From: a virus
Length of the DNA stretch: 50,987 nt
IMG/VR virus record: IMGVR_UViG_3300017971_000080
Coordinates: 1 to 50,987 of that record
Strand: one strand, 5' to 3'
Shown here: positions 4,245-38,626 of the stretch, piece after piece
Numbering within the stretch: the stretch's first letter is position 1
How the letters are laid out: each line of letters opens with the position of its first letter
Translations under genes and position numbers: made by a program
The notes under the pieces: generated by a model
The model's input: the letters and a program-made list of their open reading frames with translations, nothing else
What the model was told of the DNA's origin: nothing
Database searches by the model: none

Positions 4245-4697
4245 CTACTTCTTCTTCTTCTTCTTAGGTTTGGTGGTGTTATTCTCCTCCAGCAAAAGCC
4301 GGATAAATGGTTTATTACTATCCATCAGGGTTAAAAGGCCAGTGGTGTATGACTCGACGATAGCCTCTTCTATGTCCCCGACGCGATTCAGAATCTTAGT
4401 CAGGACCTCCAGGTCGTTGGCGTTCAGGCGGTATTTTCCGCTGGCCATCGCCAGGAGCAGGGCCGGCACGACGAACTTAGCCCAGATGGCATGGCCGCAT
4501 TCGTGGAATAAAACTCGCAGCATCCACGGGATATTGTCCTCTTTCTTGAGCTGGACTGTATTATTATGCCCATAATACAGACCTTGGTAGTCCTTCAAGC
4601 TAGAAGGCCAACGTGCCGGGACCCGCACGGATAAGCACTCGTCTCCTAGCCTCACAGACTGGATGGGAAATTCCACCTTCTTGGCCTTATTGGACAC
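4245..4697 (-). CDS. HExxH zinc metallopeptidase-like protein in the prohead-protease position
   Basis: A 150-residue protein with FHECGHAIWAKF (His65, Glu66, His69), the zinc and catalytic signature of gluzincin/ImmA-type peptidases; Glu112 or Glu116 could be the third ligand. It lies between portal and scaffold genes, where many phages carry the maturation protease, so cleavage of scaffold or capsid is a plausible job; the usual serine protease families are not evident. The start is GTG, overlapping the portal 3' end by 11 bases. The C-terminus is a run of six lysines, whose AAG repeats lead into the ribosome site of the scaffold gene. An inactive structural role is possible. Confidence 0.6.
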   Translation of the reverse strand: MSNKAKKVEFPIQSVRLGDECLSVRVPARWPSSLKDYQGLYYGHNNTVQLKKEDNIPWMLRVLFHECGHAIWAKFVVPALLLAMASGKYRLNANDLEVLTKILNRVGDIEEAIVESYTTGLLTLMDSNKPFIRLLLEENNTTKPKKKKKK

Positions 4698-6795: not shown

Positions 6796-7108
6796 CCTCT
6801 ACGTCATCCAAAAGGCAAGGCCCCTCTAATACCTGGGCACCACTGGATTTAGGGAAATACCGCGTCCGATCCGCCGGGCCGAGACGACGTGCAAGCCTCG
6901 GCCTCTTCTGCTTCTGGGGTGGAGTGGATGGACGGCCGGCAGCACGTTCTACCATGTCTCGAAGTCTGGCTTGGGCTTCCGGGGTGGCCTCTTCAGGTGT
7001 AGGCGGAGCCGACGCATGTTCCAGTTGTACCTGAGTCATAAGCGTAAATGCCTCTGCAAGCAAGGCATACGCCTTCGTCAACCGGTGGTCTACAAAGCCT
7101 GGCAGCAT
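6755..7108 (-). CDS. Hypothetical protein, 117 residues, overlapping portal start
   Basis: Not recognised. The N-terminus is an amphipathic helix (HRLTKAYALLAEAFTLMTQ), followed by a Pro/Glu-rich linker and a basic stretch (PPQKQKRPRLARRL), then an acidic tail. It overlaps the portal start by 41 bases and the Tad2-like gene by 19 bases, so translation is probably coupled. The EGPCLLDDVEDE ending resembles the CLLDGLDDE segment of the putative terminase small subunit (10250-11092), perhaps a shared interaction motif. Confidence 0.55.
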   Translation of the reverse strand: MLPGFVDHRLTKAYALLAEAFTLMTQVQLEHASAPPTPEEATPEAQARLRDMVERAAGRPSTPPQKQKRPRLARRLGPADRTRYFPKSSGAQVLEGPCLLDDVEDEQTDTSAAGKAR

Positions 7109-7296
7109 GGCGAGGCATCCTTCCAGTCATCTGCTAGGAAATCTTCCTGTGACGGTACATACATCATCGGACGTAGCCCCTCATGGGCCGGGATATAGTT
7201 CAGCCCGTCCTCTGCAAGACGAATAGTACCATGTACTCTGGGCCGGTAAACTTGCCCACCTTCTTCTAGTATCTTGACTGCTTCGTGGAATCGCAT
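7090..7296 (-). CDS. Tad2-like (DUF2829-type) small protein, candidate anti-Thoeris
   Basis: The 68-residue product starts MRFHEAVKILEEGGQVYR and ends with VPSQEDFLADDWKD. This is the layout of the DUF2829/Tad2 family, whose members start M-x-F-x-EA-x3-L-x2-G-x2-V-x-R and close with a polar-D-L-A-x-DW motif. Known Tad2 proteins sequester cyclic ADP-ribose-type signals and block Thoeris defence. The chosen ATG at 7296 has a GGAGG-type site; a longer reading to 7446 is less likely, since its extra 50 residues are Arg/Pro-rich and overlap the upstream gene. The family call is by eye. Confidence 0.5.
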   Translation of the reverse strand: MRFHEAVKILEEGGQVYRPRVHGTIRLAEDGLNYIPAHEGLRPMMYVPSQEDFLADDWKDASPCCQAL

Positions 7297-7496
7297 GGCA
7301 GTAGCTCCTCCTTCATGGTCTGAGGCAGGCCGTCGTAATTGCGGCGGATCAGCTTGGACAGGGCGTTCCTGCCAAGGGACTGTATCCGGGCCGTGGCCTC
7401 CCAAGGTCCTATACCGTCTGAGTACATCAGGGCGGCGGCGGCCCACTTATGCAGGCACTCCAACGGTGCGTGCTTCACGCCTGGGATTTTCTGCAT
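7266..7496 (-). CDS. Hypothetical protein, 76 residues
   Basis: Not recognised. Small, with Cys and Trp in CLHKWAAAALMYSDGIGPWEATARI and a helical, possibly DNA-binding segment (ARIQSLGRNALSKLIRRNYDGL). The start at 7496 is preferred to 7511 because GGAGGAG lies six bases before it, while 7511 has none. It overlaps the Tad2-like gene by 31 bases and belongs to the accessory cassette between terL and portal. Confidence 0.55.
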   Translation of the reverse strand: MQKIPGVKHAPLECLHKWAAAALMYSDGIGPWEATARIQSLGRNALSKLIRRNYDGLPQTMKEELLPCDSTKQSRY

Positions 7497-20789: not shown

Positions 20790-21275
20790 TTACTCCGGCT
20801 TCTGGAGGTTCTTCAACAGGTCATCCAAGAGCTGTAGCAGCTTACTCTCCTTCTCCTGGGCTGACAGTTCGGTATTTCGGAGGAGATCAAGCATAGCCTT
20901 CCTCAACTCAGGGTCGGCCTCGGCCCGCTTCTCCAGCTTGGCCGCCAGCTCCCCCTCAAGATCGACTCCTGTAAGGGACAGCTCCAAGTCCACCAACCAT
21001 ACCGGCCCGGCCATCCCTACTACCCTATACCTCGGGTCGTTCAGCCGTGCGTCCACCGAGCTACTCCCACCGGTAGGGGACAACCCATCCACTGCCTGTA
21101 AGGCCAGCGTCTTGGCAATATCCGCTACCTGCCCGGCTGCCTTCGGCCCTGTCTGCACCACCTCTCCCGCCGGCCCAAGACATCCACAACACAGGATCAA
21201 GGACAGGCAGCACAGACTACCAAGTACGACACCTCGAACTACCCCTAAGCGTCTGCTACTCATTCCGCTACTCAT
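20790..21275 (-). CDS. Putative phage lipoprotein
   Basis: A 161-residue protein with a lipoprotein leader: basic start (SSRRLGVVRG), hydrophobic core (VVLGSLCCLSLIL), then a CCGC cluster fitting a lipobox. The mature part has a loop-rich region and ends in a long charged helix (about 110-160; ELAAKLEKRAEADPELRKAM). A lipid-anchored protein with a C-terminal coiled coil could be an outer-membrane spanin or a superinfection factor. ATG at 21275 overlaps the upstream stop; ATG at 21263 is an alternative. Confidence 0.6.
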   Translation of the reverse strand: MSSGMSSRRLGVVRGVVLGSLCCLSLILCCGCLGPAGEVVQTGPKAAGQVADIAKTLALQAVDGLSPTGGSSSVDARLNDPRYRVVGMAGPVWLVDLELSLTGVDLEGELAAKLEKRAEADPELRKAMLDLLRNTELSAQEKESKLLQLLDDLLKNLQKPE

Positions 21276-21621
21276 TCTGCTTGTCCTCCTTCGGGCTGCC
21301 GACGAACTTATCCCAGACCGGCAGATGCCTCTCCTCCAGCTTGTGCTGGGCATCCAGCTTCTTCAGTTCCTTCGAGATGATCTCCCTATGGCTATCGGTA
21401 AGTGCCAGCTCCATCGGCTCGTCCTTCGTGTGGTCCCAGGTCACGCCAGTATTGTTGCCCTTCTCATCCTGGATGTAGCTCATGCTGAGGTGCTCCCTCT
21501 CATAGTCGGAGAAGCTCAACAACTCCCTCAGCTCTCTGATCGTCCGAATCTCCAGGATGCTCCCCGTGAGCGGTCCCAGGACATGCAACAGCGTGATGCG
21601 TTCGGTTACATTGAGTTTCAT
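21268..21621 (-). CDS. Conserved phage protein, 117 residues
   Basis: The sequence MKLNVTERITLLHVLGPLTG followed by ILEIRTIRELRELLSFSDYE and a C-terminal LKKLDAQHKLEERHL matches a widespread phage protein layout (LNV-x-ERI-x-LL near the start, LRE-x-LSFS-x2-E, and a K-L-x3-H ending) of unknown function. ATG at 21621 is preferred to 21627 because GGAG lies eight bases before it rather than one. It precedes and overlaps the lipoprotein gene. Confidence 0.65.
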   Translation of the reverse strand: MKLNVTERITLLHVLGPLTGSILEIRTIRELRELLSFSDYEREHLSMSYIQDEKGNNTGVTWDHTKDEPMELALTDSHREIISKELKKLDAQHKLEERHLPVWDKFVGSPKEDKQNE

Positions 21622-24498: not shown

Positions 24499-24708
24499 AT
24501 GTACGGCCATTCCGACCACATCCAGCAATGGGAAGACTACATCGGTGGGCCTCCAGAAGACGAATGCCCTATCTGCGAGTTAGAGGAACTCCTGGCATGT
24601 CGTGATGGCAACATCGCCCAGCTAGAACAGACCATCCACGACTTAGAGAGTGAGTTGCAGCAGTACCGAGAGGCTGCCCTCCAGGGCCGTAAGACGATCT
24701 TCCCCTGA
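24499..24708 (+). CDS. Coiled-coil protein with CPIC motif, 69 residues
   Basis: Not recognised. Residues 20-30 (ECPICELEELLACRD) carry three Cys, and residues 30-60 form a heptad-like coiled coil (IAQLEQTIHDLESELQQYRE). The ATG at 24499 follows the preceding stop by one base. A similar Cys-plus-coiled-coil design occurs at 29277-29450. It lies directly before the polymerase. Confidence 0.6.
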   Translation: MYGHSDHIQQWEDYIGGPPEDECPICELEELLACRDGNIAQLEQTIHDLESELQQYREAALQGRKTIFP

Positions 24709-24727
24709 GAAGGAGCATGGTAAGACC

Positions 24728-27346
24728 ATGACGTGCGAGTTCAAGTCCAACCCGGCCTGCACCGCTTGCCCTCTCCACGAGGGCGTCCAGTCAGTCTGCA
24801 TCCCGACACGGCTCTTCCAGCCCTGTAGTCTCACAGTACGCGGCAAGCAGGCCCTACTCTGTCTTGGTGAAGCTCCTGCCGCTAACGAAGATGCTGCCAA
24901 CGAATGCTTCATAGGGGAGTCCGGCGGCGTACTACGGGACTGCATGGCCTGCTTAGGTGTCCCTGACCTCGACATCTACGTCGGCAACTTACTTCGGTGC
25001 CGGCTACCCAAGCAAGCCAACCCCACTGACTCCCAGTATAAGGCGTGTCGCCCGTACCTCCTGGACGACATCAGGCACCTCCTTTCTGTGTACTCTGGCC
25101 GTCTGACCCTTCTACTCCTGGGAGGGTCAGCGGTCAGGGGCATCTTACGTACATCTGTCAAGAAGGCCCTGAAACGCCAAGGCGAACTCGTACTTCTGCA
25201 CGAGGAGTTGGAGCATATCCCAGTCTACTCCACTTACCACCCGGCGTATGCCCTGCCCGGTAGAAGTCCAGCGACGATTGCGGCTATTGCGGACCATCTG
25301 ACCCTCCTATCTCGTAGACTCCGCGGAGAAAGCGATGTCATCCAGCACGGAGAGGTTGATTATCTGGTCGCCCCGCCAGTCGAGTCGGCAAGCCCTGACT
25401 CAAGCTACCCTCTCAGCCTCGACATCGAGACTTACGGCATCTTGACCTCCTTCCCAGAACAGACTGTCTTCCACCCACAAAGGTCCATCCACACCGACGG
25501 CATCGCATCCGAAGACCTCGTACAGACCGCCGCCATCTCTTGGGCCGAAGATGGCCTGGTCGTAAAGACCGGCGTATTCAACCTAACACGCATGGACCAC
25601 CAGAACGAGTTTTTCAAGTGGGTACAGTATGTCTACCGCAAGCGGCGGAGGTGGGTCTTCTCTAACGCCCCCTTCGACTTATCCTACTTGAGGGAATGGG
25701 ACCAGGCCTTCCGCCTATACCTCCGTCACGAAGTTGAAGTGGAGGACATCCAAGCCTTATCCTACCTCGTGTCGGACGTGAGGCCAGAGCGGTCCCTCAA
25801 GGCCCTCTCCACCTTACTTGGAGTGGCGAAGTACGGCCAGCAGTCCAAGGAGTTCGTCCGGTACGATAGGCCGGACCATCCCGAACTACTGGCCTATCAC
25901 GCCCTGGATGCCGAGGCTACCCTCCGCTGCTACATCGCCCTCCAGCACGAGATCGAGGAAGCCTACCCGGACTCGCCCAAGCTGTCCCTGCGTACCCGAC
26001 AGTGGTACTCGGACATCATCTGGCTCTGTGTCTACCTGATGGAGAACGGGTGCTGCCTGGACTTCCGCCAACTCACGAAGCTCGGCCAGTCCTTCTCCTC
26101 CGGGATGGCGGCCCTCCTTTCCAAGGCGAAGAAGCAAGGGTTCAAGTTGGCCGGCAAGGGTTCGGACAAGTGCGTGCGGAACTTGATCTCCGACGCCGCC
26201 GCCCATGCCGGCCTCTTAACCCACCCCGAGCTGGAACGCACACCCACTAAGGGGGAGATCAGCGTAGGGGCCAACAACGTACGCTTGGTACAGGCCCATC
26301 TGTCAGGTACGGACCCCCTCTTCGGGCCGGTGGAGTGGCTCCGACGCTATGGCAAGCTCCAGAAGCTCCTCGGCACTTACGTCCGCCCCATGACAGGCTA
26401 CTCTGGAGTCAAGATGAAGCACGGCCAGGTAGATCGCCGCCAAGTCTTAATCAGGGGGACGGCGTATCCGACGTGCTTCCCCTTCCCCTCGCAGGTCTCC
26501 GACTACGACCCGGATGACACTGAGGGCGGGACGAAGCAGGGCCGCCTCTCCTACAAGAACCCGAGCCTACCCACTAACCCCAAGACCATCAAAGCCTGCA
26601 AGAAGAGCCGCCATCGCCCAGGCTTCCTCTTGGGTATAGACCTTTCTCGCATAGAGCTAGTAGTCGCAGCCTTCCTCTCCGGTGATGACCGTATGCTTAC
26701 GCTTCTACAGGAGAGCGACCTCCATCAGGTTAGGGCGGTGGAAATCTTCGGCGAATCCATCCTCGACTTGCCCAAGGAGGAGTTCTCTAAGCTCCGCCAT
26801 GTAGGCAAGACCGATAACTTCCGTGCCATCTACCGGGGCTCGGAGTACCTCCTGCGTATCACGATACGGGCACAGACAGGCCTCGACTACAGCCTGGAGA
26901 AGTGCCGTGAGATCGCAGCAGGTGTCAAGGAACGCTACCCCGACCTCTGGGCCTGGCAGGACTCCCTCATCGAGGAGGTAGACGAGAAGGGCTACCTCAT
27001 GGACCCCATCTTGGGTCAGGGGAGGCTATTCACGCAGAGCCCAACGACGAACCGCCAGGACTACGAATCGACCATCTGCAACTTCATGGTGCAGCAAGGG
27101 GCGGCGAACATCATGCTCTGGGCTCAAAGTCAGACTGAATTTTCTCTCCGGCGACGAGGGCTGTTGACACGCACCACCCTCAACGTCTACGATTCAGAGG
27201 ACCTGGACGGCCCCCTCCACGAGTACGACGAGGCCCGCGAGATCGCCTTGCACTACCTCCGACATAATCAGTACGTCAAGTGGCTCGAAGAGCACTATGG
27301 ACGCTCCTTCCCCTTGTCCTGGGAGGAAGAGGTACGCTACTTCTAA
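24728..27346 (+). CDS. Fused uracil-DNA glycosylase / family A DNA polymerase with 3'-5' exonuclease
   Basis: An 872-residue fusion. Residues 1-195 match family 4 uracil-DNA glycosylase: Fe-S ligands Cys11, Cys14, Cys91 and Cys107 (C-x2-C ... C-x15-C), LGEAPAANED (47-55) and YHPAY (170-174). The exonuclease follows with Asp232/Glu234 (LDIET), Asp317 (NAPFD) and Tyr390/Asp394 (YHALD). The family A polymerase shows motif A Asp638 (IDLSRIEL), motif B Arg690, Lys694 and Tyr702, and motif C Asp822 in VYDSED, where the usual HDE reads YDS. It probably replicates phage DNA, while the glycosylase part may excise or sense uracil. The ATG at 24728 leaves the cysteines intact; AAGGAG is 12 bases upstream. 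Confidence 0.9.
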   Translation: MTCEFKSNPACTACPLHEGVQSVCIPTRLFQPCSLTVRGKQALLCLGEAPAANEDAANECFIGESGGVLRDCMACLGVPDLDIYVGNLLRCRLPKQANPTDSQYKACRPYLLDDIRHLLSVYSGRLTLLLLGGSAVRGILRTSVKKALKRQGELVLLHEELEHIPVYSTYHPAYALPGRSPATIAAIADHLTLLSRRLRGESDVIQHGEVDYLVAPPVESASPDSSYPLSLDIETYGILTSFPEQTVFHPQRSIHTDGIASEDLVQTAAISWAEDGLVVKTGVFNLTRMDHQNEFFKWVQYVYRKRRRWVFSNAPFDLSYLREWDQAFRLYLRHEVEVEDIQALSYLVSDVRPERSLKALSTLLGVAKYGQQSKEFVRYDRPDHPELLAYHALDAEATLRCYIALQHEIEEAYPDSPKLSLRTRQWYSDIIWLCVYLMENGCCLDFRQLTKLGQSFSSGMAALLSKAKKQGFKLAGKGSDKCVRNLISDAAAHAGLLTHPELERTPTKGEISVGANNVRLVQAHLSGTDPLFGPVEWLRRYGKLQKLLGTYVRPMTGYSGVKMKHGQVDRRQVLIRGTAYPTCFPFPSQVSDYDPDDTEGGTKQGRLSYKNPSLPTNPKTIKACKKSRHRPGFLLGIDLSRIELVVAAFLSGDDRMLTLLQESDLHQVRAVEIFGESILDLPKEEFSKLRHVGKTDNFRAIYRGSEYLLRITIRAQTGLDYSLEKCREIAAGVKERYPDLWAWQDSLIEEVDEKGYLMDPILGQGRLFTQSPTTNRQDYESTICNFMVQQGAANIMLWAQSQTEFSLRRRGLLTRTTLNVYDSEDLDGPLHEYDEAREIALHYLRHNQYVKWLEEHYGRSFPLSWEEEVRYF

Positions 27347-27361
27347 GAAAGGAGGCAATGG

Positions 27362-27604
27362 ATGTCAGATACCAAGAAAGGCGGAGGCCCGGCCCAGCCG
27401 GCGATCACACGCGGAGTGATGGGCGGCCTTGGTCTCTCCCGCCTGGAGGAGATCGCCAAGAGCTGCCTCTCAGGCGTCTTGGCACGCTATTCCGACAAGA
27501 ACGACACCCAGGAGGACGAGCAGGAGATGGTAGAGAAAGCCTTTCGCATCGCTGCCAAGGCTATGGACTACTACGACAACTTACCTTCTGAGATGGAGAG
27601 ATAA
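27362..27604 (+). CDS. Hypothetical protein, 80 residues
   Basis: Not recognised. Gly-rich N-terminus then a helical, charged body (LSRLEEIAKSCLSGVLARYS; EDEQEMVEKAFRIAAKAMD). AAAGGAGG lies six bases before the ATG. It sits between the polymerase and the holin-like gene, ending two bases before the latter. Confidence 0.6.
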   Translation: MSDTKKGGGPAQPAITRGVMGGLGLSRLEEIAKSCLSGVLARYSDKNDTQEDEQEMVEKAFRIAAKAMDYYDNLPSEMER

Positions 27605-27606
27605 GT

Positions 27607-27825
27607 ATGGACATCAAAGCCCTCTTAGGTAAAGTGTGGGATGCCCTCAGCGGCTACAAGATGTACCTGGGCGTAGCCGGGTGGGCCGTCACTGGCTTAC
27701 TAGGCCAGGCCGGCATCATCCCAGAACCAATGGGCCAGGCCTTTCAGACCTTCTTCTTGGGGGTGGCAGGCGTCGGCCTCATACATAAGGGTGAGAAGCT
27801 CAGCAGGGAGCTTAACGATGTGTAA
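27607..27825 (+). CDS. Holin-like small membrane protein
   Basis: A 72-residue protein with two hydrophobic segments, about 19-37 (YLGVAGWAVTGLLGQAG) and 47-61 (FFLGVAGVGLI), joined by a turn and ending in a charged tail (HKGEKLSRELNDV). The LSGYK-x-YLG start and GLIHKGEK end match a common small phage protein often annotated as holin. Its 3' end overlaps the start of the metzincin lipoprotein, an arrangement typical of lysis cassettes. Could instead be a host-membrane modifier. Confidence 0.55.
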   Translation: MDIKALLGKVWDALSGYKMYLGVAGWAVTGLLGQAGIIPEPMGQAFQTFFLGVAGVGLIHKGEKLSRELNDV

Positions 27826-28639
27826 GTGGTGCTTCATCTTACTCTGCCTCCTCGGTGGGTGCTTGTGTGGGTGTAGCCAGGTCCGGCCGGTCGATCCGAA
27901 CAAGCCCCCACCCCCGCCGCCGCCCGAGACTCACTACGTCGGCACCATCCAGCCCTTCCTCATCACATCAGGGGAGGAGCACGAGTGGTCCGACTTACGT
28001 ATCGCCAAGGGCAAAGAGTATGTCGAGGCAGCGATGGCCGAGCCGGGCATCTCCATCTTATGGGAGGAGCCTATCCTATACGAATGGCCGGAGCTATACG
28101 ACATTGATACATTGTCGGAGTGGCTCCAGCTTTCGGCCGTCTCCCGCCAGTGGGAGATGACACGCTCCACCTTGCCCATCTACCTTTGTCATAAGATTCC
28201 GTACTGCGACTGCTCAGGCTTGGCCGCACTACCTAACAATAAGTGGGGCTTCGGCCACGGCATCGCCGTCGCCTGCTACCGTGGCACAGACTCGACCGAG
28301 TTTACACACCAGTCAGTCTGGCCGCATGAGCTTGGCCATGCCCTTGGCCTCGTCCATGTCTGGGAAAACCCCGCCATGAAGGGCATGTGCCCGTCGGCCT
28401 ATGCCTGCGATGACCCCTACTGCTACTGCAACATGATGTCTTACTGCGACCGGCCCATGCCAGTCGGAGTCTGCCTCAACGCCGCCTTCGCCGCCCAGCA
28501 AGAGGAGGACATGCGTGCCTGGCTCACTGTCCCCCCTCGCTCATGGACTTTCACTTCCACCGAGAAGAAGGCTACTACCAATACGTTCTCACCAGTTTAC
28601 ACTGACCGCGTAACCCCAACCCCTAGCACAGGAGACTAA
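27818..28639 (+). CDS. Lipoprotein metzincin metalloprotease
   Basis: A 273-residue protein. Residues 1-20 are a lipoprotein signal (CKWCFILLCLLGGCLCGC); a polyproline spacer follows. The catalytic core has the full metzincin signature HELGHALGLVH (170-180: zinc ligands His170, His174 and His180, base Glu171) and a downstream Met-turn, NMMSY (205-209). Many Cys (KIPYCDCSGL, YACDDPYCYCNMMSYC) suggest disulphides, as in secreted proteases. It would be anchored in the cell envelope and cut envelope proteins. The ATG at 27818 overlaps the holin-like gene by eight bases. No other lysis enzyme was recognised, so a lysis or host-wall role is attractive but unproven. Confidence 0.8.
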   Translation: MCKWCFILLCLLGGCLCGCSQVRPVDPNKPPPPPPPETHYVGTIQPFLITSGEEHEWSDLRIAKGKEYVEAAMAEPGISILWEEPILYEWPELYDIDTLSEWLQLSAVSRQWEMTRSTLPIYLCHKIPYCDCSGLAALPNNKWGFGHGIAVACYRGTDSTEFTHQSVWPHELGHALGLVHVWENPAMKGMCPSAYACDDPYCYCNMMSYCDRPMPVGVCLNAAFAAQQEEDMRAWLTVPPRSWTFTSTEKKATTNTFSPVYTDRVTPTPSTGD

Positions 28640-28641
28640 AC

Positions 28642-28911
28642 ATGAAGAAGGAGCCGACCAACATGAACGAGATCGTCGAACTCAACGGAGACGTGCCCCT
28701 GAAGGAGGCAACCTTATTTGACCTCTACGTAGGGCTCAGCACTGCCGCCATCTTGGGCGACCAGAGGTCCCTAGAGGCTATCTGCCAGATAGCCGCCGAG
28801 ACTGGAGAGCCTGAGCCTCTTACGGCGGCTAAGGTTGCCGCCGGCCAGGCCGCCTCCAACCTAGCTGTCCGTCGTGGACTTTACGCCGGCGACTACACAC
28901 CAGGAATTTAA
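28642..28911 (+). CDS. Hypothetical protein, 89 residues
   Basis: Not recognised. Acidic and helical (EATLFDLYVGLSTAAILGDQ; SLEAICQIAAETGEPEPL; AAKVAAGQAASNLAVRRGL). A second in-frame ATG (28663) gives MNEIVEL. Starts two bases after the metzincin stop. No membrane or signal segment. Confidence 0.55.
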   Translation: MKKEPTNMNEIVELNGDVPLKEATLFDLYVGLSTAAILGDQRSLEAICQIAAETGEPEPLTAAKVAAGQAASNLAVRRGLYAGDYTPGI

Positions 28912-28914
28912 CCT

Positions 28915-29241
28915 ATGCACGAGGACGAGGACAAGCAAGAGTTACTTTCCAACGGGCTGCCATGCGAATGCTTAGAGGCGGTAGCCCCGCTGACCATCTG
29001 GTTCTCACTCTTCTCGAAGACTTTTAAGGAGGGCATAGGCCTTGAATCAGAAGTGGAAGTTGGCCACCTTCCGCCGCAGTTACAGCAGGCAGTCCTGACG
29101 GAAGTGCGGTCCTATGCTACGATGGTAGACCTACGCCTCAAGCCCCTCCTTCGTTCGGGCAGAGACGTGGACTACCGCACGGCCCTCGGCCTCTACTCAG
29201 AATGCAGGGTCGTCCCTATGGATCAGATACAGTTCTCTTAA
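28915..29241 (+). CDS. Hypothetical protein, 108 residues
   Basis: Not recognised. Mixed helical (GLPCECLEAVAPLTIWFSLF; LQQAVLTEVRSYATMVDLR), ends in a short polar segment. Starts three bases after the previous stop; part of the same transcription unit. Confidence 0.55.
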   Translation: MHEDEDKQELLSNGLPCECLEAVAPLTIWFSLFSKTFKEGIGLESEVEVGHLPPQLQQAVLTEVRSYATMVDLRLKPLLRSGRDVDYRTALGLYSECRVVPMDQIQFS

Positions 29242-29276
29242 CGGAAGTGCAATTGACGAGCAAGTAGGAGGTTACT

Positions 29277-29450
29277 ATGTCCATCTGGGTTTGCGACAAC
29301 AACGATCACGGTGAAATATGTTACCAGGGCCACAGCTGTTCGGCCTGCGAGAAGATAGAGTCCCTCAAAAATGAAATTGAGGAGCTTGAGGGGATAATAG
29401 CCGACCAGAAGGACGAGATCGCCGAGCTTGAACAAGAGATCGAAGAGTGA
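29277..29450 (+). CDS. 57-residue Cys-cluster coiled-coil protein
   Basis: ATG at 29277 with TAGGAGG a few bases upstream; TGA at 29448-29450. The N-terminal part carries four Cys (WVCDN, CYQGHSCSAC) that could bind zinc, and residues 27-57 are a near-perfect heptad coil (IESLKNEIEELEGIIADQ, then KDEIAELEQEIEE). Function unknown; the design suggests a dimeric adaptor. Confidence 0.6.
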   Translation: MSIWVCDNNDHGEICYQGHSCSACEKIESLKNEIEELEGIIADQKDEIAELEQEIEE

Positions 29451-29499: not shown

Positions 29500-29913
29500 A
29501 TGAAATCCTGGTACGACAAACTCTTCAGCTATGCGGGGTGGGTATCGGCCGCCCTGGTCGTGTGGCTCTTCCTAGGCTCAGTCATGGGCATGTGTGGCTG
29601 TACCGAGCTTATGAGCCCAGACTCCATCGACCAACAGGCCACCACCCAAGTAGAAGAGCAGGAGCAGACCTCGACTGCCACGACGGAGCAGATCAATACC
29701 GGCGGAGGTTCCCAAGCCGTGGACAACCGCCAGGTCCAGACGGCTATCCAGAACGACACAGCCGTCTTACTCAAAGCCATCCAGCACCAGCTCTATCGTG
29801 ACATCGCCTCCACTGTCCTGGTCGGCATCCTAGTCATTGCCGCTGTCTGGCACTATCGCTACTCACGCGAGAAGCCCAAGTACATGCGAGCCAACGGCTT
29901 CGGAGACCACTAA
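29500..29913 (+). CDS. Two-segment membrane protein, 137 residues
   Basis: Not recognised. A first hydrophobic stretch at about 13-35 (AGWVSAALVVWLFLGSVMG) ends in CGC, which resembles a lipobox but could be a simple anchor. A Gln/Thr/Glu-rich middle follows (about 45-75), then a second membrane helix at about 103-121 (IASTVLVGILVIAAVW) and a basic tail. GGAGGACAAGCAG precedes the ATG. It may be a spanin-like or other envelope protein of the lysis region. Confidence 0.55.
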   Translation: MKSWYDKLFSYAGWVSAALVVWLFLGSVMGMCGCTELMSPDSIDQQATTQVEEQEQTSTATTEQINTGGGSQAVDNRQVQTAIQNDTAVLLKAIQHQLYRDIASTVLVGILVIAAVWHYRYSREKPKYMRANGFGDH

Positions 29914-31271: not shown

Positions 31272-31517
31272 ATGGCTAAGGTGTACGTAGAACTAGACCT
31301 GGATACGGACGGCAAGGTCGATACGTTCGAGTTGGCTACAAATTTGTCCTGTCTCTTCAGCGACGCGGCAGGGAAGTACGGGCTGCCTCTTGTTCTTGAT
31401 CTTACTGTCTGGTCATCTTTATTTGACCTTAACTATGATATAACCATGCTTGCCGACGAGCTACGGGGAGAGCAAGCTTTGCTATCCCACCAAATAGAGG
31501 GGGATAAGCCATGTTAA
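31272..31517 (+). CDS. Hypothetical protein, 81 residues
   Basis: Not recognised. Acidic, beta then helix (KVYVELDLDTDGKVDTFELA; NLSCLFSDAAGKYGLPLVLD). GGAG lies before the ATG at 31272. Overlaps the Tat-leader gene by seven bases. Confidence 0.55.
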   Translation: MAKVYVELDLDTDGKVDTFELATNLSCLFSDAAGKYGLPLVLDLTVWSSLFDLNYDITMLADELRGEQALLSHQIEGDKPC

Positions 31518-31831
31518 GACGATCCTTCTTAAAAGCCGTCGCCGCAGCGGTGTGCGTGCCATTGGCCAAGCCCCTTGCTGCTCTTGCCTCTCGTGGCCAC
31601 ACGGAAGTAGTGGTTGATACCATCGAGTACACGGGCTCCTCTCCCTACTGGGGCAACTCCTTCATGGGCACGCCCCGCCCACTAACGGAGGCCGACCTGA
31701 ATAAGGCGTACTCTAACTTCCACATAGGCTACGTAACAATGGAGGAACTTTCAGCCCCCAAAGAGATCATTCGGGGTACAGCAGATGAGGCCGCCAGCGC
31801 AGAACTAAACGTCTTCTACGGATTCGCCTAA
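31511..31831 (+). CDS. Tat-type signal protein, 106 residues
   Basis: The N-terminus MLRRSFLKAVAAAVCVPLAK, followed by PLAALASRG, is a near-classical twin-arginine signal (RRSFLK, moderate hydrophobic core, Ala-x-Ala cleavage). Tat signals are rare in phage genomes. The mature about 80 residues look compact and beta-helical (VVVDTIEYTGSSPYWGNS; YSNFHIGYVTMEELSAPKEI) with no known family. It implies export of a folded phage protein to the host periplasm or cell surface. Cleavage is predicted near residue 27. Confidence 0.6.
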   Translation: MLRRSFLKAVAAAVCVPLAKPLAALASRGHTEVVVDTIEYTGSSPYWGNSFMGTPRPLTEADLNKAYSNFHIGYVTMEELSAPKEIIRGTADEAASAELNVFYGFA

Positions 31832-37740: not shown

Positions 37741-38015
37741 TGAAGCATCAGCACTCTAACTCTCAGTACAAGCGGTATCGTCGGCGGCTGGACCGGGCGA
37801 CCGACCTCGTGGAGAGCCTCTTAGTAGCTATGGCGGACCTGGCCTCCTACAGGGGCGAGGGGAAGCCCTCCTACCGCTGCTACCTGGAGATGTCCCTGAA
37901 GGCCCGGCGGTATCTCGCCGCCGGCCTCCGTGACCGCGACGAACTCTTACGCTTCGTTGGAGACTTCACCCATGATGAAGATGACTCTACTACTTCTACT
38001 GCTGATAGGGAGTAG
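37737..38015 (+). CDS. Hypothetical protein, 92 residues
   Basis: Not recognised. Basic helical start (YKRYRRRLDRATDLVESLLV) then a second helix (SYRCYLEMSLKARRYLAAGL) and an acidic tail. Overlaps the DUF4326 stop by four bases (ATG at 37737, with a second ATG at 37740) and the dockerin-like lipoprotein by 44 bases. Confidence 0.55.
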   Translation: MMKHQHSNSQYKRYRRRLDRATDLVESLLVAMADLASYRGEGKPSYRCYLEMSLKARRYLAAGLRDRDELLRFVGDFTHDEDDSTTSTADRE

Positions 38016-38409
38016 TTGTCCGCAGCAGCAGACTGTCTCAACTACTACGTATGAGTTGGCACAGGTGCCCCCTATGCTTGTAGACTACCACGGCCCAACC
38101 GACTTCACTGGCTACATGCCACGTACTATCTATTATGGGCCGGACATAGGGGCCTTCGAGTGGTGGATGCAGGGCGACTTCAACTTCGATGCCTCAGTAG
38201 ATGCAGCCGACTGGCCCTGGCTGGAATGGTGCTGGCGGTACTCCGGCCCAGGCGTGCCCTGCCCCTCCCGTACCCATACCGGCACAGGCGAGGTCGTGAC
38301 GATCCGCTGCTTACTGGCAGACGAGGACAACGACGGCGACATAGACTTATATGACGTTGCCGCCTGGATGACACGGCAGGGTAACGTCCACCTGCCCCCA
38401 TCTAACTAG
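37972..38409 (+). CDS. Dockerin-like calcium-loop lipoprotein
   Basis: A 145-residue protein. The N-terminus (MKMTLLLLLLIGSSC) is a short lipoprotein signal with a clear lipobox. The mature part has two dockerin-type calcium loops, DFNFDASVDAAD and DEDNDGDIDLYD, each with Asp/Asn at loop positions 1, 3, 5 and 12, separated by a Trp-rich helix and a Cys-GPGVPC linker. Such paired loops with GPGVP linkers are characteristic of Planctomycetota surface proteins. It would be anchored at the host envelope and bind calcium. The ATG at 37972 has TTGGAG nine bases upstream; the gene overlaps the previous one by 44 bases. Confidence 0.7.
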   Translation: MMKMTLLLLLLIGSSCPQQQTVSTTTYELAQVPPMLVDYHGPTDFTGYMPRTIYYGPDIGAFEWWMQGDFNFDASVDAADWPWLEWCWRYSGPGVPCPSRTHTGTGEVVTIRCLLADEDNDGDIDLYDVAAWMTRQGNVHLPPSN

Positions 38410-38422
38410 TAGGAGAATAGAT

Positions 38423-38626
38423 ATGGCAATAAGACAGGTAGAAGCCAAAAACACAGGTTTCGGATTCGTCGTTGAGTATAAGGTTATTCTCGTGCGGTTT
38501 ATGTGTGGAAAGTGCCACGAGTGTTTCTATGTAGAGCGTAAGCCAGAGGGTAAAGCCGTATGTGATGTCGTTTCTTGTCCTTTCGGATGCTCTCAGAAGG
38601 AGGAGAAGGAAGAGAACCCACTCTGA
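38423..38626 (+). CDS. Small zinc-ribbon protein, last rightward gene
   Basis: A 67-residue protein with CGKCHEC and CDVVSCPFGC clusters, a likely zinc ribbon, and a charged tail (SQKEEKEENPL). GTAGGAG precedes the ATG. It is the last plus-strand gene and its end overlaps by 34 bases the end of the large internal protein gene read from the other strand; no separate terminator is visible. Confidence 0.6.
   Translation: MAIRQVEAKNTGFGFVVEYKVILVRFMCGKCHECFYVERKPEGKAVCDVVSCPFGCSQKEEKEENPL

Follow-up and report, generated by a model that had tools for sequence, protein, structure and literature searches.

Phage-associated metzincins have already been tied to host lysis in Listeria. There the genes for a metzincin of phage origin (Mtz) and for its TIMP-like lipoprotein partner (Tim) frequently lie downstream of the holin-lysin genes in prophages, and co-expression of the two sensitised cells to phage lysis and raised virion release about 5-fold (PMC8235301). 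In a survey of phage u-spanins, all 58 proteins lacked cysteine in their middle part (PMC6139136). The window analysed here, which is the whole 50,987-bp stretch of a virus record, carries a lipoprotein metzincin gene that overlaps a small two-helix ORF and lies 0.9 kb upstream of a u-spanin-like gene (Table 1). We tentatively interpret this protease as an accessory lysis factor.

Table 1. Coordinates of the gene pair, its motifs and its neighbours in the window.
Position	Strand	Feature	Remark
24650–27346	+	UDG and family A DNA polymerase fusion	same tightly packed operon as the pair
27362–27604	+	80-aa gene between polymerase and pair, no assigned function	
27607–27825	+	72-aa protein, two mildly hydrophobic helices, charged C-terminus	holin-like in shape only
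27818–28639	+	273-aa lipoprotein metzincin	lipobox LGGC (C15), Pro-rich linker, HELGHALGLVH, Met-turn NMMSY
28325–28357	+	zinc-binding motif HELGHALGLVH, residues 170–180	sequence
28430–28444	+	Met-turn N-M-M-S-Y, residues 205–209	sequence
28642–29450	+	three small genes (89, 108 and 57 aa) between metzincin and u-spanin-like gene, no assigned function	without Pfam or PHROG match
29500–29913	+	137-aa candidate u-spanin: N-terminal signal, atypical lipobox MCGC, C-terminal membrane helix	criteria of PMC6139136

The first and last 92 bases of the record are identical. Identical ends are the usual mark of a complete genome, and because of this exact terminal repeat we take the phage genome to be probably complete. 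Most of its genes are unrecognisable. The layout appears podovirus-like, with portal, scaffold, capsid and internal virion proteins placed by position and composition only, and the putative portal and capsid genes match nothing in the Pfam and PHROG libraries; the terminase, on the minus strand, was recognised by a PHROG match (8e-39). Plus-strand replication genes extend from about 23.4 to 38.6 kb and include the UDG-PolA fusion, a PD-(D/E)XK nuclease, an AAA_24 protein and a dATP/dGTP diphosphohydrolase. The small ORF and the metzincin lie within this operon, one small gene downstream of the polymerase and on the strand opposite to that of the structural genes. From the polymerase region through position 38626 the listed genes are no more than 79 nt apart, strong Shine-Dalgarno sites precede nearly all starts in the operon, and consensus scans for promoters and terminators returned no more than chance level. 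Neither protein patterns (metzincin, polymerase, terminase, capsid) nor a degenerate terminase pattern retrieved a close relative of the phage, and tblastn and megablast searches against phages and plasmids gave just distant matches, to the polymerase and the terminase. The best match to the polymerase, MW202455, was set aside as a myovirus whose genes are arranged differently and which does not bear on the pair. Elsewhere on the minus strand we observed a Tad2-like domain (PF11195, 3.7e-7), from a family that counters Thoeris defence, at 7093–7446 and a second HExxH protein (HECGH) at 4248–4697, between the putative portal and scaffold genes.

Both reading frames and their overlap are as the first-pass annotation had described them, and the overlap measures 8 nt: the small ORF ends in ATGTGTAA, the metzincin begins at 27818, and codon usage preferred the annotated frame over the five other frames for each gene. 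The metzincin start is an ATG preceded by the Shine-Dalgarno sequence AGGGAG; the program-listed start of the protease, a GTG at 27791, was rejected as it is not the best start. The small protein had been described as holin-like, which applies to its shape but not to any family assignment, as no Pfam or PHROG family matched and the hydropathy of its two helices peaks at Kyte-Doolittle values of only 1.36 and 1.24. Its similarity to the transmembrane (TM) neighbours of other phage metzincins was no better than that of shuffled sequences.

The protease carries the full HExxHxxGxxH motif and Met-turn that had been noted at first reading. Its signal, MCKWCFILLCLLGG, is followed by a cysteine and then by PPPPPPP, and the lipoprotein signal LLGGC contains a lipobox, LGGC, at residues 12–15, in which position -2 is Gly, contrary to the strict consensus given in PMC6139136. 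We predict that the protein is exported by Sec as a lipoprotein and anchored in the envelope by its N-terminal cysteine, and that it is an active protease. All catalytic residues are intact, and in the Met-turn (N205-M-M207-S-Y209) the Tyr lies two residues past the Met, as it does in several metzincin families. The protein has 16 cysteines, 10 of them beyond residue 100. At E<=0.005 its Pfam matches belong without exception to metzincin families, namely M43 (the best, at 2.4e-4), M10, M66 and M12; five metzincin Pfam families were weakly matched in all, each under its curated cut-off, and the M43 score was 21.5 bits against a gathering cut-off of 23. Weak PDB matches to the catalytic region were metzincins in 16 of 16 cases, and AlphaFold2 models of the protease were of very low confidence (mean pLDDT 42.7 and 29.7). 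On the strength of its motif we assign the protein to the metzincin clan; it leans towards M43 but is not a member of that family. It is an orphan sequence: an alignment-guided scan detected no relatives of it among 571 viral motif stretches.

Those 571 stretches, all carrying HE[LF]GH[ATG]LG, show that metzincins are common in phages. A separate motif scan of viral contigs gave at least 120 matches, from which 114 ORFs were sampled, and lipoproteins among these ORFs from the matches listed numbered 12 by a strict script and about 18 by inspection. The earlier view that a lipid-anchored phage metzincin is unusual does not survive these counts. A single scan of genome contigs yielded only a Proteus serralysin-like gene. 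One further viral gene, L077:125-952, combines PG_binding_1 with a matrixin domain, which is the domain order of matrix metalloproteinases, and L114:2244-3053 looks similar; both stand beside small TM genes.

The gene context of other phage metzincins falls into several patterns. In contig L084 the metzincin is followed by an endolysin (PHROG 4e-21) and a holin (9e-21). In L064 the order is a TM protein, a lysozyme (PF00959 Phage_lysozyme, 4.5e-7), a lipoprotein metzincin and a spanin-like protein with a TM segment and a coiled coil, and in L055 a Peptidase_M15_3 endolysin (3e-12) precedes a lipoprotein metzincin and the same coiled-coil protein. The metzincins of these last two contigs (L064:5268-7246 and L055:422-2644) are homologous and occupy the same slot, while their endolysins, a lysozyme and an M15_3 enzyme, are not homologous. 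Small membrane or lipoprotein genes also adjoin or lie near the metzincin in L004, L053, L066 and L105 (small TM and lipoprotein genes after it in L105 and L066, a TM gene before it in L053), where the lysis context is less clear than in L084, L064 and L055; L053:11947-12624, L004:4036-4656 and L066:9588-10313 were suspected by eye to be lysins, and domain searches gave no confirmation. Other secreted metzincins are often near helicase, nucleotide-metabolism or RNA-ligase genes. Replication or RNA-processing genes surround those of L002, L101, L024 and L085, and in L002 and L101 the metzincins are lipoproteins amid genes of DNA and nucleotide metabolism. A small TM gene adjoins the metzincin in 8 of 26 clusters when any member is counted (p=0.004) and in 5 of 26 by majority (p=0.18), compared with 10% of control genes, so the enrichment is suggestive, not conclusive. 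With the phage under study left out, a conventional muralytic domain occurs in 6 of the 13 metzincin contigs: Amidase_2 in L002 and L103, Phage_lysozyme in L064, SLT in L016, M15_3 in L055 and a PHROG endolysin in L084, the co-occurrence being less telling in L016 and L103, which exceed 400 kb. L004 gave a weak GH-like match only.

In the phage itself, as the first-pass annotation had reported, we found no muralytic enzyme. Pfam and PHROGs revealed no such domain over 57 ORFs searched together and further ORFs searched in separate batches (nearly all plausible ORFs), whether adjoining the pair or elsewhere in the genome, and targeted searches with nine Pfam lytic families over the whole record also found none, although those for GH108 and GH19 matched no control genome either. 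This absence is weak evidence, because the putative portal and capsid genes escaped the same libraries. By its topology, the gene at 29500–29913, downstream of the metzincin, encodes a possible u-spanin, newly proposed here, with a predicted periplasmic part free of cysteine. Two other predicted exported proteins were seen in the window: one among the tail genes (20793–21353, minus strand), which has the lipoprotein signal LILCCGC when read from an internal Met and is possibly a second envelope protein, and a 106-aa protein (31511–31831, plus strand) with a Tat-type signal (RRSFLK), which is unusual for a phage.

A link between the metzincin and lysis is plausible because secreted or lipoprotein metzincins of other phages adjoin endolysins, holins or spanin-like genes, and because of the Listeria precedent and the u-spanin-like gene nearby. 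The overlap with the holin-like ORF supports an accessory role, and this role is favoured over replacement of an endolysin because in the clearest cases the metzincin adjoins an endolysin and because six of the 13 other metzincin contigs have a muralytic domain. Exported by Sec and held in the envelope by a lipid anchor on its N-terminal cysteine, the protease would work with the putative small membrane protein of the overlapping gene, and probably also with the u-spanin-like protein. It may cleave host envelope proteins of the outer membrane, linked to peptidoglycan or in a surface layer, with the result that the envelope would yield after the membrane has been opened and the wall cut. The position of the gene in the replication operon, directly after the DNA polymerase, argues against late lysis timing. 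The frequent siting of other secreted phage metzincins near helicase, nucleotide-metabolism or RNA-ligase genes and the lack of a clear enrichment of small TM neighbours also count against the accessory role. Together with the tight gaps and the lipoprotein metzincins of L002 and L101, this position would suit an enzyme of early or middle infection without a direct role in lysis, which would trim proteins on the host surface and might thereby exclude superinfecting phages or alter the envelope. We rank such remodelling second, as less likely than the accessory role. The holin-like overlap, the neighbouring u-spanin-like ORF and the several other phages with metzincins in lysis cassettes speak against it.

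It is also improbable that the gene is cargo unrelated to lysis or exclusion, or encodes an envelope lipoprotein that lacks catalytic activity and serves some other purpose; an orphan that passes no family cut-off could be expected in that case, but the intact catalytic residues and Met-turn and the tight operon packing speak against it. On the most far-reaching view, the phage lacks any enzyme that cuts peptidoglycan, and host lysis depends on the holin-like protein and an envelope-anchored metzincin dismantling a protein-based or protein-crosslinked outer layer; we regard this as extremely doubtful. In the reading of the first-pass annotation the link to lysis stands as plausible, but the replacement of a muralytic enzyme is unsupported. 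On that reading the protease is the sole lysis enzyme, breaking a protein-rich or protein-crosslinked envelope alone after the holin-like protein has acted. The lack of a recognised muralytic domain in a probably complete genome agrees with this, but that negative is weak, the conventional endolysins or lytic domains of other metzincin contigs count against it, and peptidoglycan is present in Planctomycetes (PMC4432640), which are a possible host group. We judge it highly improbable. Our guess at this host group comes from a short lipoprotein-like protein (37972–38409, plus strand) with two dockerin-like calcium loops (Pfam dockerin E=0.02), which seems to resemble planctomycete proteins; given the peptidoglycan of this group, a planctomycete host alone would be no argument for a wall made only of protein.

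If phage lipoprotein metzincins do assist lysis, as the accessory reading would have it, they would form a widespread and largely overlooked protein-cutting arm beside holins, endolysins and spanins. The L064 and L055 pair, with the same metzincin and unrelated endolysins, offers a directly testable system, and the present phage would be a more divergent version without any recognisable endolysin.

Compared with the M43 pappalysin family (e.g., ulilysin), our protein shares HExxHxxGxxH, the N-x-M-x-Y Met-turn and a Cys-rich catalytic domain, as well as a C...F...Q..M tail that we take to be a pappalysin feature, but it scores below the family cut-off, is predicted to be lipid-anchored and has a shorter spacer. 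With the proteins of L064 and L055 and of L004, L066 and L105 it has in common a short phage-encoded lipoprotein metzincin near small membrane or lipoprotein genes, with an endolysin adjoining in two of those contigs. Those proteins are M10-like by Pfam, and only a short spacer separates their zinc motif from the Met-turn, whereas ours leans to M43, has a Cys-rich spacer of 24 residues and is longer in its N-terminal part. The candidate u-spanin resembles phage u-spanins such as T1 gp11 in its N-terminal export signal with a cysteine, C-terminal TM helix and Cys-free middle, and differs in its atypical lipobox, the lack of a sequence match and the absence of an endolysin neighbour. Judged by features rather than sequence, the Listeria Mtz/Tim system shares with this locus a phage-associated metzincin with HExxHxxGxxH and a Met-turn, a second paired gene and, by prediction for our protein, export and a lysis link, but there the metzincin is soluble and secreted, its partner is a TIMP-like lipoprotein that Mtz cleaves, and the host is Gram-positive. 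The general idea is thus known from Listeria, and a metzincin that is lipid-anchored and encoded in an endolysin cassette represents a variation on it.
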